In this document: in pieces, positions 4,020-13,692 of the stretch
Layout of the letters: each line of letters starts with the position of its first letter
Numbering within the stretch: position 1 is the first letter of the stretch
NCBI GenBank assembly: GCA_012518735.1
Contig: JAAYRO010000003.1
Location: 1 to 42,054 of the forward strand
Direction of reading: 5' to 3'
DNA length: 42,054 nt
Source: Bacillota bacterium
GTDB taxonomy: Bacteria > Bacillota > Limnochordia > Darwinibacteriales > Darwinibacteriaceae
The notes under the pieces: generated by a model
Told to the model about the DNA's origin: nothing
Databases searched by the model: none
Seen by the model: only the letters and a program-made list of their open reading frames with translations
Made by a program: the position numbers and the translations under genes

Positions 4020-4743
4020 AGATCATTTTCACCGTCATTCCCCCGTCCACTATCAAATTCGTTCCAGTAATAAAGCCGGCCCCATTGGACGATAGATACT
4101 CACATGCAGAGGCAATATCAGCAGGAAGACCTACTCGACCACTAAAATGCTGCTCCTGATCTGCCCTGCTAAGTTGTTCCTGCGATGTATGAATCCATCC
4201 TGGGCTGATACAGTTCACCCTAATCCCGTATATACTGAGAGATGCAGCCAGACTATGAGTCAAAGCCACCAAACCACCTTTGGAAGCTGTATATGCCTCT
4301 GTGTTCGGTTCAGACATAAAAGCACGGGTAGAGGCGATGTTGATAATGCTTGGATCAACAGCCTGTTTGAGAAGGGGCAGTAGATACTTGGTCATTAAAA
4401 ACGCCCCTCGCAGATTGGTATTTACCACTACATTCCACTCATCCACCGTTAACTCTTCTATACTTTTATTAATACTCATGCCTGCGTTATTTACTAGTAC
4501 ATCGACACGGCTGAATTCTCCAGCAAGCGTGTCCCCGAGCAGCCGAACACTGTTAGGCAGTGCCACGTCGGTTTGGACAGTCAATAATCGATCTGTCACC
4601 CACTCGTTTTCATGACGAAGATCAGCAGAAACGACCGTATCCCCGCTGGAAAGAAATCTTTCAACAATAGCCTTACCAATCCCTTGAAATCCGCCAGTTA
4701 CCACTATTACCCGGTGCGTCATTGCCATTCCACTCCTCTCCAT
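4012..4743 (-). CDS. SDR family oxidoreductase
   Basis: VVTGGFQGIGKAI (TGxxxGIG), NNAGMS, YTASKGGL (YxxxK), SPGWIHT. True start probably MAMTHRV, a few codons inside. Confidence 0.92.
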   Translation of the reverse strand: MERSGMAMTHRVIVVTGGFQGIGKAIVERFLSSGDTVVSADLRHENEWVTDRLLTVQTDVALPNSVRLLGDTLAGEFSRVDVLVNNAGMSINKSIEELTVDEWNVVVNTNLRGAFLMTKYLLPLLKQAVDPSIINIASTRAFMSEPNTEAYTASKGGLVALTHSLAASLSIYGIRVNCISPGWIHTSQEQLSRADQEQHFSGRVGLPADIASACEYLSSNGAGFITGTNLIVDGGMTVKMIYE

Positions 4744-4772
4744 CCACCATTAACCTTTAGTACCACTGTGCC

Positions 4773-4801
4773 AAATAAAAAGGAGGCTGTCAACAGCCTC
4801 C
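4773..4801 (-). terminator. Intrinsic terminator downstream of DUF1540 gene
   Basis: GGAGGCTG-TTGA-CAGCCTCC hairpin followed on the minus strand by TTTTTATTT. Confidence 0.8.
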
Positions 4802-4817
4802 CAAATCAATGATTGAT

Positions 4818-5063
4818 TTACTTCGTTCGAAACACATTATCATCTTCAATCTCCTGCGAATCTTTGGGAACAAAAGTCTTACAGCAAGTCTCCATACAAG
4901 AATCAACGGGCGAAACAGGAGTTCGCGCTGATTGGGGCGCATCCCAACTATCTGGCTGATCGGCACCAAACTGATCCGATGTAATCAGAATTTCTGATGC
5001 GACACATTCATTCCCCTGCGCCCAATAATGGCAGTTGTTCACGCTGCAGTTCACTCGAGCCAT
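4818..5063 (-). CDS. DUF1540 domain-containing small Cys-rich protein
   Basis: MARVNCSVNNCHYWAQGNECVASEILIT...DSCMETCCKTF; typical DUF1540 cysteine pattern. Confidence 0.88.
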   Translation of the reverse strand: MARVNCSVNNCHYWAQGNECVASEILITSDQFGADQPDSWDAPQSARTPVSPVDSCMETCCKTFVPKDSQEIEDDNVFRTK

Positions 5064-5106
5064 ATTGAGTGCCTCCTTAGGTTAATTTACCAACAGTAGT
5101 ATCTCA

Positions 5107-5940
5107 CTAACCAAAAGCTTTTATTCCACTGTAGAGTTTGCTGATAACCAAGGTGACGGCAAACAATGCAGTTGCCACAAGAACTACCGTAGCTCCAGGC
5201 GGCGCCCCTAGATAGTATGAAATATACAATCCCCCAAAGGCAGACAAAAGGCCATTACCAGCCGCAACGGCCATCAGAGGACCAATCCGCTTAGTAACTA
5301 GAGAACCAGTGGCTGCAGGAGTAATTAATAAAGCCACGACTAAAATAACACCTACCGCCTGTATGGAAATGACAATTGCTACTGCAACAGCGGCAAGTAA
5401 CAAACTTTGGAAAAATGCAACAGGAAAACCAGCCGCCTCAGCACCAACCGGATCAAATGCAGCAAAGACAAAACGGGAGAAAAAAACCCACATCATAATA
5501 CCAATCAATACTGCCACTCCAATAATCAGCCAAATCTCCCGAGATTGTATGGCCATCACTGAGCCCAAAAGCAGACTGTTCAAGTCTCCTGCAAATCCTG
5601 GCAGAGCGGCTAAAATAATGATGCCTAACGCAAAAACGCCGGTAAATAGTATAGCTAATGCAGTGTCATCTTTTACCTTCGTCACACGAGTCAAAAACAC
5701 TACACCCAAAGCGGTGATCAAAGCAAAAACCAGTGCCCCAAAATATATGTTAACACCTATGAGCAGTGCGAAGGCAATGCCGGTAAAAGTCGTATGAGCA
5801 ATGGCGTCACCCATAAAGGCTAAACCCTTTAATACAACGAAAGTACCTACTACCGCAGCCACAACAGCGATAATTCCGGTTCCAATAAAAGCTCGAATCA
5901 TGAAAGAATACTGAAAGGGTTCCAAAAGGGTTTCAAACAT
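5107..5940 (-). CDS. Metal (zinc/manganese) ABC transporter permease, ABC-3 family
   Basis: 277 aa; GLAFMGDAIAHTTFTGIAFALLIG, QAVGVILVVALLITPAATG; operon with ATPase and metal-binding protein. Confidence 0.93.
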   Translation of the reverse strand: MFETLLEPFQYSFMIRAFIGTGIIAVVAAVVGTFVVLKGLAFMGDAIAHTTFTGIAFALLIGVNIYFGALVFALITALGVVFLTRVTKVKDDTALAILFTGVFALGIIILAALPGFAGDLNSLLLGSVMAIQSREIWLIIGVAVLIGIMMWVFFSRFVFAAFDPVGAEAAGFPVAFFQSLLLAAVAVAIVISIQAVGVILVVALLITPAATGSLVTKRIGPLMAVAAGNGLLSAFGGLYISYYLGAPPGATVVLVATALFAVTLVISKLYSGIKAFG

Positions 5941-6709
5941 CGTGAATCATAACCTCCCCGGTAGGTTGAACAGTGGGGAAATGGCGGGAAAAAAGTTTAG
6001 TCATGATGTCTTCCGTTAGTACCTCTCGCGGTACACCTTCAGCCACCACTTCACCATTCAGAGCTAAGACCTGATCAAAATGCTCAATTAGGCAGTCAAA
6101 ATCGTGAGTCGCTACAACTATCGTTCGCCCTTCTGATCGGAGCTTCTGGAATGTGCTGGCCAGTTCATGTTGGGCCTGCGCATCCAGTCCTGTGGCAGGC
6201 TCGTCTAAAAGAATAATATCGGCTCCTTGAGCTAGAGCACGGGCCAAAAACACTCTCTGCCGCTGCCCCCCACTTAGTGACCCAATCTGGGCCGACTCAA
6301 GATCACTAATTCCAAGGTGAGTTAAGGCTTGGCGAGCCAATTCATAATCCTGTGGTGTAAATCTCTCCCAGAATCGCTTACTGATAAGCCGTCCCTGTAG
6401 AACTACATCCAAAACTGAAATAGGAAAAGACCAATCTACTTCTTCTGCTTGAGAAAGATAAGCAACTTTTCCCCGTACTTCGCCAGGAGCTGAACCCATC
6501 AGCCTAATTTCTGCATTTTCATTAAGCGGCTTAACTAGTCCTACTAAAGCTTTCAGCAGAGTAGACTTACCTCCCCCGTTAGGACCAATAATTCCTGCTA
6601 AAGTTCCATCCAGTACTTCCCATGAGATACTGCTGATCACAGGACGACCATCATACCCTGCTTTTAGATCTCTTACTTCAATTGCTGGTTGTCTAGATCT
6701 GGCAATCAT
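5933..6709 (-). CDS. Metal ABC transporter ATP-binding protein
   Basis: Walker A GPNGGGKST, signature LSGGQRQRV, Walker B ILLDEP. Confidence 0.94.
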   Translation of the reverse strand: MIARSRQPAIEVRDLKAGYDGRPVISSISWEVLDGTLAGIIGPNGGGKSTLLKALVGLVKPLNENAEIRLMGSAPGEVRGKVAYLSQAEEVDWSFPISVLDVVLQGRLISKRFWERFTPQDYELARQALTHLGISDLESAQIGSLSGGQRQRVFLARALAQGADIILLDEPATGLDAQAQHELASTFQKLRSEGRTIVVATHDFDCLIEHFDQVLALNGEVVAEGVPREVLTEDIMTKLFSRHFPTVQPTGEVMIHDV

Positions 6710-7617
6710 TGCAGTGCCTCCACAAGTGTCTTTCCGTTCAAGTACATCATATCCAAATATGAGGATACATCTTGAGTGAAACTATCACTATACAGTATTC
6801 GCACACTACCCCCTACCTCATTGGTCAGAGCTTCAGCGTAACGATGCCCACTGCTGATTTGAGGTTCCATAAAAACTACAGGCTTATTATACGAACTGAG
6901 AAGCTTGACCATTTCAACCATATCACGGGCAGTCGGTTCACTCTGTGGATTGTGAACCAAAAACTCAACCACTGAAAACCCATAGCGATCTGCCAAATAA
7001 CTGAACGCGTTATGATAGGTAACCAGTACTCGATTCTCTGGGGGTATCTTGCTGATCTCTGTCAGCAGCCAAGCATCTAATTCCTCAAGCTTTTGAATGT
7101 AATCTGCAGCACGTTCTTGGAAATACTCTTCATTTTCTGGCACCAAAGCGCTAAGAGCGGCTGCCATTCTTTCAACATAGTGGATAGCATTAGGAACACT
7201 CAACCAAAAATGAGGGTCTCCTTCATGTTCATGCCCGTGGTTGTGTTCTCCTCCAGCAAGTGGAACCAGTCCCTCTGATAGAACAACAACAGGCGTATCA
7301 GGACTGGCTGCATTACTGATTAAACGATCCAGCCAAGCATCGAACCCTCCGCCATTGGAAAAAACAATGTGGGCCGATGCTACTGACCGAGCATCTCGAG
7401 GTGTAGGTTCCCATGAATGGGGATCTGCACCAATAGGCACTAAGGATATTACATCTGCCCGATCGCCCCCTACTTCCTGTGCGAAATCAGCCAAAATAGG
7501 AAACGTTGTCACAATTCTTATGTCACCAGCTTCTACCATAAAAGTGCAAGTACCTAGAAGCATTATAAGTACCAGCACACCTATTTTCGGTGCCCCATTT
7601 TTCACCATGTAATCCAC
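6706..7617 (-). CDS. Metal ABC transporter substrate-binding protein (ZnuA/cluster A-I type)
   Basis: Signal peptide, VGIGADPHSWEPTPRDA-like motif, His-rich loop HNHGHEHEGDPHFW, ENRVLVTYHNAFSYLADRYG. Start may be the internal MVKNGAPK. Confidence 0.92.
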   Translation of the reverse strand: MDYMVKNGAPKIGVLVLIMLLGTCTFMVEAGDIRIVTTFPILADFAQEVGGDRADVISLVPIGADPHSWEPTPRDARSVASAHIVFSNGGGFDAWLDRLISNAASPDTPVVVLSEGLVPLAGGEHNHGHEHEGDPHFWLSVPNAIHYVERMAAALSALVPENEEYFQERAADYIQKLEELDAWLLTEISKIPPENRVLVTYHNAFSYLADRYGFSVVEFLVHNPQSEPTARDMVEMVKLLSSYNKPVVFMEPQISSGHRYAEALTNEVGGSVRILYSDSFTQDVSSYLDMMYLNGKTLVEALQ

Positions 7618-11558: not shown

Positions 11559-11855
11559 TCAGCACTGACTGCTGTGGTTTGTTTTTATGGAAAACCCTTT
11601 GCCAAAAATGGTTTTCCGATAATCCACAACTGCGCCTTGGGCGTACTTCATGGCTTGAGGGTCCAACAAGAACTTAAATCCGGAGCTTTCTACAACCGTA
11701 TCTCCCATTTCTTCTGTCTCTTCCAGAGACATTCCAAAATTAGGACCGCCTCAACCAAAACCATGAACAAAAATGCGAATCATAGTTACATCAGGTGCTG
11801 CTTGATCCAGCAATTCACGGAGCATTGCCTGAGCTTTGGGAGTAACTGTGACCAT
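11559..11855 (-). CDS. HesB/IscA-like selenoprotein (in-frame TGA at 11751-11753 read as selenocysteine)
   Basis: Not in the ORF track because of the internal TGA. Reads MVTVTPKAQAMLRELLDQAAPDVTMIRIFVHGFG(U)GGPNFGMSLEETEEMGDTVVESSGFKFLLDPQAMKYAQGAVVDYRKTIFGKGFSIKTNHSSQC*. ATG at 11855 is preceded by a strong SD (AGAGGAGG). U is at codon 35, where HesB/IscA proteins carry the conserved Cys. SECIS-like hairpin at 11715-11731. Confidence 0.88.
11704..11744 (-). promoter_or_regulatory. Candidate bacterial SECIS element
   Basis: Minus strand after TGA: 19 nt, then TGTCTC-TGGAA-GAGACA (perfect 6-bp stem, 5-nt loop with G at loop position 2). The loop starts 26 nt after the TGA. Possible lower stem CCUAAUUU/AAAUGGG with one bulge. 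Confidence 0.78.
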
Positions 11856-12225
11856 GAAAAATCCTCCTCTTAACATTTATCAGTCCACAACAAACTAGAA
11901 CGGCAAGTGCTGCAAAGGTACCTAATCGACCACCCACTCCCACTAGACAAGCACGACATCCGTAAACTATGACTGCACACAAAACGCTAACAACAGCCAT
12001 TTCTAATTGGTTCGTCACCCGAACACAGGAAGACATGGTGGCATAAGATACACATGTACAGACCCCTGCTAAGAATATACCAGATTCATGCAGACGTGGC
12101 AAGAGCAGCCCTGACAGCAGAGCTATCCAAGCAGACACTTCCACGCTCGATAATCCTCGATGATTTCGAAGCCAGAAACCGAAGGCTCCAGCAGGAATAC
12201 TTACAAAAAAGCTCACCCACAACAT
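11815..12225 (-). CDS. Hypothetical Cys-rich membrane protein, paralogous to the upstream gene product
   Basis: 136 aa; hydrophobic segments, GVGGRLGTFAALAVLV matches GIGGRLGTMAATAVIV of the neighbour; several Cys (VCTCVSYATMSSC, VLCAVIVYGCRACLV, VCC). The 3' end overlaps the HesB-like gene start by 41 bp. Confidence 0.65.
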   Translation of the reverse strand: MLWVSFFVSIPAGAFGFWLRNHRGLSSVEVSAWIALLSGLLLPRLHESGIFLAGVCTCVSYATMSSCVRVTNQLEMAVVSVLCAVIVYGCRACLVGVGGRLGTFAALAVLVCCGLINVKRRIFHGHSYSQSSGNAP

Positions 12226-12226
12226 C

Positions 12227-12727
12227 CTACCGTCCCCCCACTCCCAGTAAGATTGTTACAATGACTGCTGTTGCTGCCATGGTACCAAGACGCCCACCAA
12301 TTCCTTCCCAGACACCCTCCATCACTTCATACAGCAGACCAGCAAACAGTCCAGCCAAACCTGCTGTCCAAATCGTAGGTAAGACTTCTGGCGAACTCAT
12401 TCCGACAAAAGCACCTGTGTAGACAATTAATGAGTACCGATTCTTAAGAAATTTACTAGCTAAGAGACCGACTACTCCAGATGCGACAGTGGGTCCCAAA
12501 TTGGAAACGCTGCTCAAGGCATACACTATTACCGAGCCTACACAACCTAAAACGGCTGCTGTTATCAGCTCACGCCAATCCTTTTCATAACTAAATCCCA
12601 AGCCACAGCCTACTAGACCAAGACCACTTAGGAAGATAACGAATGAATGACCTCGACCCAACATGCCGTGGATCAGTTCCAAAGCAGCAACAATCAGCGG
12701 TATTGCCATAAGGATCCACTTCCACAT
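12227..12727 (-). CDS. Hypothetical polytopic membrane protein
   Basis: 166 aa, MWKWILMAIPLIVAALELIHGMLG..., multiple hydrophobic segments; tandem with the homologous downstream ORF (stop and next ATG one base apart, TAGGATG). Confidence 0.7.
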   Translation of the reverse strand: MWKWILMAIPLIVAALELIHGMLGRGHSFVIFLSGLGLVGCGLGFSYEKDWRELITAAVLGCVGSVIVYALSSVSNLGPTVASGVVGLLASKFLKNRYSLIVYTGAFVGMSSPEVLPTIWTAGLAGLFAGLLYEVMEGVWEGIGGRLGTMAATAVIVTILLGVGGR

Positions 12728-12741
12728 TGGGTCTCACCTCA

Positions 12742-13692
12742 TTAAGGAAGGCTGCTTTGAAGTACGATCCCTTTTCCGTCTAATACATAACGTTTTAGAC
12801 AGGCTGGAACCAAACACGACTGACCCTTCCCAATTTTCGTTGTAGAACCATCGGCTGTAATATGAGCATCCCTATCTACGCTCGTGACTATGTGAAAACT
12901 GTCCTCCAACTCTATTGTCTTAGTGGTGGGCCCATTATGAACCTGAAGCAGAAAATGCTGACTGCATCTGGCAAAATGGTAATCCATAGAATAGGCTTCT
13001 TGGGAAAAGTCGATGACTTCTAAGGCTTGAGTAATGTGTAAATCACGGGGTTGTCCCTGATCGTCCACACGATCCCAATCGTAAACTCGATACGTCGTAT
13101 CAGAATTCTGCTGAACTTCGGCAACAACGACCCCCGCGCCTAATGCGTGAACTAGGCCAGCTGAAATAGGATATATCTCGCCTGCTTTTACCTGAACCTT
13201 ATTTAGACAATCTAAAATTGCTGAACCACCTTTTTTTACGGCTTCGGAAAAGCGTTCCCGAGTTACTCCTGGGCGAAGACCCCAGATTATCCACGCGCCA
13301 GGATCGCTGTGGACAATGTACCACATCTCTGTTTTGCCAAGTTCGCCCGGAATGTTCAAAGCAGCGTATTCGTCATCTGGATGTACTTGTACTGATAGAT
13401 CCTGCCGTGCATCGATAAACTTTAACAGCAGAGGAAATTTACCGTCCTTCTGCCTTCCCTTAAAACCGACCAAATCGATACCATAAAGATTCACTAATTC
13501 CTCTAAGGATCTGCCGGCCAATTCCCCCTGAGCAACTACACTTACACCATTGGGGTGAGCGGCAACATCCCAGCTTTCTCCAATAGGGCCAGACGGGAGA
13601 GAACGTCCAAAAAGCTCTGCAAACCTCCGCCCTCCCCACAGTTTCTCTTTATAAATAGGATGAAATGTCAATGGATATAACTTCGGTTTCAA
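12742..13692 (-). CDS. manA: Mannose-6-phosphate isomerase, type I (class I, Firmicutes type)
   Basis: 316 aa; YPLTFHPIYKEKLWGGRRFAELF, LSVQVHPDDEYA, GKTEMWYIV, VQQNSDTTYRVYDWDR. Confidence 0.94.
   Translation of the reverse strand: MKPKLYPLTFHPIYKEKLWGGRRFAELFGRSLPSGPIGESWDVAAHPNGVSVVAQGELAGRSLEELVNLYGIDLVGFKGRQKDGKFPLLLKFIDARQDLSVQVHPDDEYAALNIPGELGKTEMWYIVHSDPGAWIIWGLRPGVTRERFSEAVKKGGSAILDCLNKVQVKAGEIYPISAGLVHALGAGVVVAEVQQNSDTTYRVYDWDRVDDQGQPRDLHITQALEVIDFSQEAYSMDYHFARCSQHFLLQVHNGPTTKTIELEDSFHIVTSVDRDAHITADGSTTKIGKGQSCLVPACLKRYVLDGKGIVLQSSLP

Follow-up and report, generated by a model that had tools for sequence, protein, structure and literature searches.

A paired membrane protein family encoded beside formate genes is a candidate formate channel unrelated to FocA and FdhC

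The stretch of DNA analyzed here (the window) comprises the 42,054 nucleotides of contig JAAYRO010000003.1 of a Bacillota bacterium (contig C76 in our numbering, from a genome of 2.26 Mb in 236 contigs), and our subject is a pair of adjacent genes in it that encode small membrane proteins, here called A and B. The gene order on the minus strand is glucose-6-phosphate isomerase, mannose-6-phosphate isomerase (PMI), A, B, a HesB/IscA-type gene, malE and malF. Protein A (12227–12727, minus strand; 166 amino acids) is predicted, from its open reading frame (ORF), homologues, loop charges and alignment, to have two N-terminal transmembrane (TM) helices followed by one five-helix repeat, and it is the counterpart of the N-terminal half of fused homologues. 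Protein B (11815–12225, minus strand; 136 amino acids) is predicted from its ORF, homologues and an hhalign comparison to be one five-helix repeat paralogous to A, and is the counterpart of their C-terminal half. A single base separates A's stop codon from B's start codon (TAG-G-ATG), and the start codon of the HesB gene, preceded by AGGAGG, lies 41 bp within B. The original prediction, made from the letters of this DNA, had all of these sizes, the one-base gap and the overlap right. A scan for promoters and terminators at the locus gave scores at the level of shuffled sequence. The named relatives are Bacillota metagenome-assembled genomes (MAGs) from digesters and sediment, among them Peptococcaceae bacterium 1109 and one Limnochordia MAG.

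An ancient duplication had been proposed to underlie the pair, and two comparisons bear this out. BLASTP of A against B alone gave 15 of 26 identities (E 8e-5), and profile–profile alignment of the two families with hhalign covered 106 columns at 99.5% probability (E 5e-23), which indicates that A and B are true paralogues and that their shared motif reflects homology, not chance. Both modules are joined in a single protein of ~255–370 residues in many lineages, with A as the first half and B as the second. Each repeat is most strongly conserved at a near-invariant G-x-G-G-[K/R]-L-G-T, identified from conservation counts and present once in each; in the window it reads GIGGRLGT in A (residues 142–149; 12281–12304, minus strand) and GVGGRLGT in B (residues 96–103; 11917–11940, minus strand). 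The original prediction also described B as unusually rich in cysteine. This is real (8 Cys) but private to the window's genome, as 48 homologues have a median of 1 and a maximum of 4, and a redox role for these residues was rejected because they are not conserved.

Topology was examined by counting lysine and arginine residues per loop in 16 fused proteins and 48 A/B pairs. Loops a, b and c of repeat 1 carry 0.06–0.08, 0.8–2.1 and 0.0–0.06 of these residues, and those of repeat 2 carry 1.4–1.7, 0.06–0.4 and 1.6–1.9, with 3.7–5.7 at the C-terminus. Under the positive-inside rule, this mirrored pattern implies that the two five-helix repeats are oppositely oriented, so that A and B probably insert antiparallel, as 5+5 TM inverted repeats. 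The G-x-G-G-[K/R]-L-G-T loops of the two repeats are predicted to lie on opposite faces of the membrane. AlphaFold2 was run on a fused homologue with an alignment of 42 rows, containing fused and A rows only, since an alignment that included B rows had matched them to the wrong half of the fusion; a prediction made without an alignment reached a pLDDT of 44 and was discarded. The resulting model is confident (pLDDT 96.8, pTM 0.94) and predicts 12 helices in a 2+5+5 layout. In a Foldseek search with this model, no PDB entry and no viral model was matched at E ≤ 0.001, the best PDB matches being ClC channels with a TM-score of at most 0.20.

The original prediction recognized no described function for the pair, and our searches agree. 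No Pfam or NCBIfam family reached its cut-off for the window's A and B, none was common to the members scanned (up to 79), and a sequence search of the PDB gave no match to the family. Weak Pfam matches are scattered over unrelated families (Phage_holin_3_3 in 6 of 79 members, ThrE in 1 of 79 at E 0.053), and matches by one member, such as Wzy_C (3.8e-5), were taken as chance. The family is also undescribed in the literature searched, which covered few subscription papers and no preprints. When one genome per species was scanned with eight closer sequences as queries, 261 relatives were found, of which the best 80 fall in Bacillota, Flavobacteria (Winogradskyella, Cellulophaga, Maribacter), haloarchaea, Amphibacillus, Mollicutes/Izimaplasma MAGs and Thermoflexales MAGs. 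The protein family is large and matches nothing in the libraries searched; the formate channel, as a function, is already known. Weak partial matches (E 6e-5 to 8e-5) within ORFs of 577–591 amino acids at two loci (L182 in genome G330, L183 in G172) could be distant relatives or chance.

Formate genes recur around these proteins. Within the window's own taxonomic family, five loci (L047, L049, L052, L055 and L059) have NuoE-A-B-NuoF-FdhA operons with an in-frame UGA in fdhA, and their A sequences form a separate clade with support of 100/99. The order A-B-NuoE-NuoF-FdhA occurs in the Clostridium ultunense group (L088, L090, L091), and fused forms occur as fusion-NuoF-FdhA (L064/L065), directly downstream of FdhA (L189/L190) and as FdhA-FdhD-fusion (L206); further linkage to formate dehydrogenase (FDH) genes was found at L107 and, convergently, at L201. 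A SelD-FdhD-A-B arrangement, often followed by MoeA or GroES-GroEL, is present in three families (L186–L188, L192–L195, L200, L202, L207). Other enzymes of formate metabolism are represented by a pflB-pflA-A-B locus (L095; PflB, TIGR01255, 1100 versus a cut-off of 994 bits, and PflA, 271 versus 232 bits), in a genome in which FdhD was not found, and by fhs-fchA-fusion-folD in Dethiosulfatibacter aminovorans (L135). Linkage to FDH or FdhD is seen in 8 of the 17 Bacillota families with A/B (f1, f6, f21, f25, f64, f67, f117, f131), far beyond the ~0.3–1.5% per locus expected by chance, although this expectation is a rough estimate and the families are not fully independent. Formate is common to the FDH, pfl and fhs contexts; molybdenum or selenium is not.

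Some further contexts were noted at individual loci. The SelD-FdhD-A-B genes are accompanied by a LysR gene at L186, L187, L188, L192, L193, L194, L200, L202 and L207, and this cluster is possibly an FDH-maturation regulon with its own LysR regulator. In Flavobacteria (L102–L152) the pair is very common in Winogradskyella and its relatives, in variable contexts, and the genomes tested had no FdhD and no SelD over cut-off. At L151/L204 the pair is followed by genes whose beginnings resemble a Kef-type antiporter (4509–5687) and a ClC-type channel (5668–6963), identified by eye, which suggests an ion-related setting. At L196, L198 and L208, all of one family, the pair adjoins genes for B12-dependent ribonucleotide reductase; an 800-amino-acid neighbour in one family, considered as a formate-using class III enzyme, was rejected because it is this B12-dependent enzyme. 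An OFA-like MFS gene near L203 was likewise set aside, its best score being to an L-lactate transporter.

Co-occurrence was assessed in 101 relatives. A/B is present in 32 and an FNT protein in 22, both together only in G032, and by tests that ignore phylogeny the FNT protein is scarcer in genomes with A/B (1 of 32) than in the others (21 of 69; p 0.0015), while pyruvate formate-lyase (PFL) or FDH is more frequent (30 of 32 versus 36 of 69; p 3e-5). The association with PFL or FDH holds outside the window's family (12/13 versus 33/65; p 0.006). FNT was also not found in Clostridium sp. Cult1 (G456), a relative of C. ultunense. The window's genome has fhs and a PFL-like sequence that lies on two contig fragments; FDH alpha, FNT and FdhD were not found in it.

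FNT formate channels are recognized by their linkage to pflBA or fdhAB (PMC5525234), and FocA is tested with hypophosphite, an analogue of formate (e.g. PMC5572259). The A/B family has the partners of the FNT channels, pflBA and fdh genes. We lean slightly towards the reading, the simplest one, that A and B form a bipartite formate channel or transporter, which would do the job of FocA and FdhC while being unrelated to them. The two proteins would be the halves of a small membrane channel or transporter whose substrate, in the anaerobic Bacillota branch at least, is most likely formate (or formic acid). A, with seven TM helices, would pair antiparallel with B, with five, the two being fused into one 12-TM protein in other lineages, and the two cationic G-x-G-G-[K/R]-L-G-T loops, one per membrane face, plausibly provide the path for anions. 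The organism of the window, probably a fermenter of sugars, has PFL, with neither FDH nor FocA/FNT found, and here the pair would mainly export PFL-derived formate. More tentatively, this unnamed family, with a fold unmatched in the PDB, may be a way of transporting formate that prokaryotes evolved independently of FocA/FdhC. It would then take the place of these channels in many anaerobes, syntrophic acetate oxidisers among them, and would descend from an ancestor of dual topology, first as gene pairs and later as fusions.

Besides the disregard of phylogeny in the co-occurrence tests, several observations weigh against a formate channel, the gravest being the setting of the window's own copy and the presence of the family in aerobic Flavobacteria and haloarchaea. 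The window's own copy is flanked by PMI and, beyond HesB, by malE, and no formate gene is close to it. The anticorrelation with FNT is weak outside the window's family (p 0.10), and FNT is also present in 8 of 35 other A/B genomes, including the fhs-linked one of Dethiosulfatibacter. Among the relatives, G013 has the pair and neither PFL nor FDH alpha, and G081 has the pair, no PFL and an FDH-alpha match only below cut-off. The loci listed from Flavobacteria, which are aerobic, and haloarchaea have no linked formate marker, and FdhD was absent where tested; the substrate of the ancestor, or of the family in general, may thus be another.

The last of these points, together with the absence of a nearby formate gene from the window's copy and its PMI-linked relatives, is what would be expected of a transporter of small solutes whose specificity is broader or different (e.g. 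for bicarbonate/CO2, another short monocarboxylate or a small anion), which some anaerobes use for formate or a co-product; the window's copy may then carry another substrate. The FDH-linked copies form a clade of their own, so the remainder may differ in substrate. Nevertheless, the PFL and Fhs contexts have formate in common, not CO2, and nearly all pair-bearing relatives possess PFL or FDH; we consider this alternative unlikely, though a serious contender.

An accessory of FDH, acting as a membrane anchor or as a supplier of molybdenum, tungsten or selenium instead of as a formate channel, would account for the tightest and most frequent linkage, that within FDH operons, with fdhD, selD and moeA. 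It is improbable given that the family is present without FDH in the window's genome, at the pflB-pflA locus (L095), in Flavobacteria and in haloarchaea, and that the fhs-fchA-folD locus has no adjoining molybdenum or selenium enzyme. Of the 35 A/B genomes that lie outside the window's own group, only 7 have SelD over cut-off, from which it follows that selenium is not what the family has in common. Supply of selenium or molybdenum was set aside as the common factor in view of the PFL and fhs contexts and because SelD and FdhD are missing from most other A/B genomes.

The immediate neighbours in the window bear on the remaining explanation. The PMI gene (12742–13692, minus strand; TIGR00218, 141.6 versus 116.2 bits) is directly upstream of A and is a conserved neighbour of A/B pairs not linked to FDH in the window's family. 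Downstream, the HesB/IscA-type gene (11559–11855, minus strand) encodes a predicted selenoprotein of 98 amino acids with selenocysteine (Sec) as residue 35, and overlaps B by 41 bp. HesB-like proteins are a known selenoprotein family (PMC1794560), which the neighbour resembles in being of HesB/IscA type and in having Sec where a Cys would otherwise stand; it scores above the cut-offs of TIGR00049 (HesB/IscA superfamily; 70.0 versus 58.8 bits) and PF01521 (39.9 versus 26.3 bits) but below those of the selenoprotein subfamilies TIGR01911 (52.1 versus 66.35 bits) and NF038090 (53.9 versus 85 bits). The proposed reading of its in-frame UGA (11751–11753, minus strand) as Sec is supported by the TIGR00049 match, by a UGA at the matching codon in homologues from G001, G007, G009, G028, G030 and others, and by a bacterial SECIS-like (selenocysteine insertion sequence) hairpin just 3' of it, TGTCTC-TGGAA-GAGACA (11715–11731, minus strand; fold z −2.2). 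This hairpin is identical in three genomes, with L043 and L045 among the loci, whose HesB proteins are 59–62% identical to that of the window. A second UGA in the frame (codon 99; 11559–11561, minus strand) is read as the true stop, not as a second Sec, because relatives carry TAA there.

The original prediction joined the two membrane subunits and the Sec-HesB protein into one translationally coupled unit, with a speculative role in membrane redox or in metal, sulfur or selenium handling. Coupling with HesB is in part upheld: the overlap is kept, at 26 bp, at L043 and L045, two genomes of a second genus, and the genes are adjacent in all three genomes of the window's family that hold both. 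HesB homologues occur in 4 of the 23 genomes of that family (G000, G001, G007, G009). G001 has two pairs, one in an FDH operon (L059) and one between PMI and HesB/Znu genes (L045). The three-gene arrangement is found in only three genomes of two related genera, and most relatives are without it. The link is real but lineage-restricted, and HesB is a local operon neighbour, not a part of the channel. Thus, while packing and overlap are kept across two genera, a membrane pair with Sec-HesB as a general redox or sulfur/selenium system is refuted and is very improbable as the function of the pair: the neighbourhood comparison suggested with the original prediction found A/B homologues widely without HesB alongside, G007, G035 and G073 have HesB-Sec but lack the pair, both are present and unlinked in G028 and G030 (another family), the cysteines of B are not conserved, SelD is infrequent, and it is formate that the conserved neighbourhoods suggest.

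Fermenters, syntrophs and methanogens use formate as one of the main currencies between them, and genome studies infer its exchange from FocA/FdhC. A second, unrelated family of formate channels, if confirmed, would change such genome-based conclusions. A haloalkaline syntrophic acetate oxidiser, for example, was judged to make H2, not formate, on the grounds that no formate transporter is encoded in its genome (PMC6295475). For C. ultunense, the genome paper describes a cytoplasmic FDH (AZSU01_60163–60167) and an adjacent hydrogenase, and its passages on these make no mention of a formate transporter or of neighbouring membrane genes (PMC5924567). The A/B family, which occurs in genomes from sediments and digesters and next to the FDH operon in the C. 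ultunense group, makes inferences from missing formate transporter genes testable. The formate channel reading, if true, would also provide a clean case of an antiparallel membrane protein passing from pair to fusion without a known fold (that is, without a PDB match), and possibly a module for formate-based biotechnology.

Compared with known systems, the family recalls ThrE/YjjP-YjjB (PF06738), two-component or fused exporters of small acids, through a single weak Pfam match by A; at 13.4 bits against a cut-off of 26.3, A is not a member on such evidence. Fluc/CrcB, SMR and DUF606, families of small antiparallel membrane proteins that exist both as pairs and as fusions, resemble A/B in having tandem paralogues of opposite topology that later fuse, whereas their Pfam models are unmatched by the A/B members scanned, and helix number and motifs differ. 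The FNT fold (FocA, FdhC; PF01226) has six TM helices in two three-helix repeats and forms a pentamer, unlike the 12 helices in 2+5+5 of the fused A/B model; PF01226 had no match in the 25 + 79 family members scanned, A/B is encoded by a gene pair or a single fused gene and has 5+5(+2) helices, and the two families rarely share a genome among the relatives. FNT channels are themselves built of inverted repeats, and A/B resembles them in this respect, in being, as proposed, a small membrane channel, and in lying beside pflBA or fdh genes, with FDH at many loci and PflB-PflA at L095.
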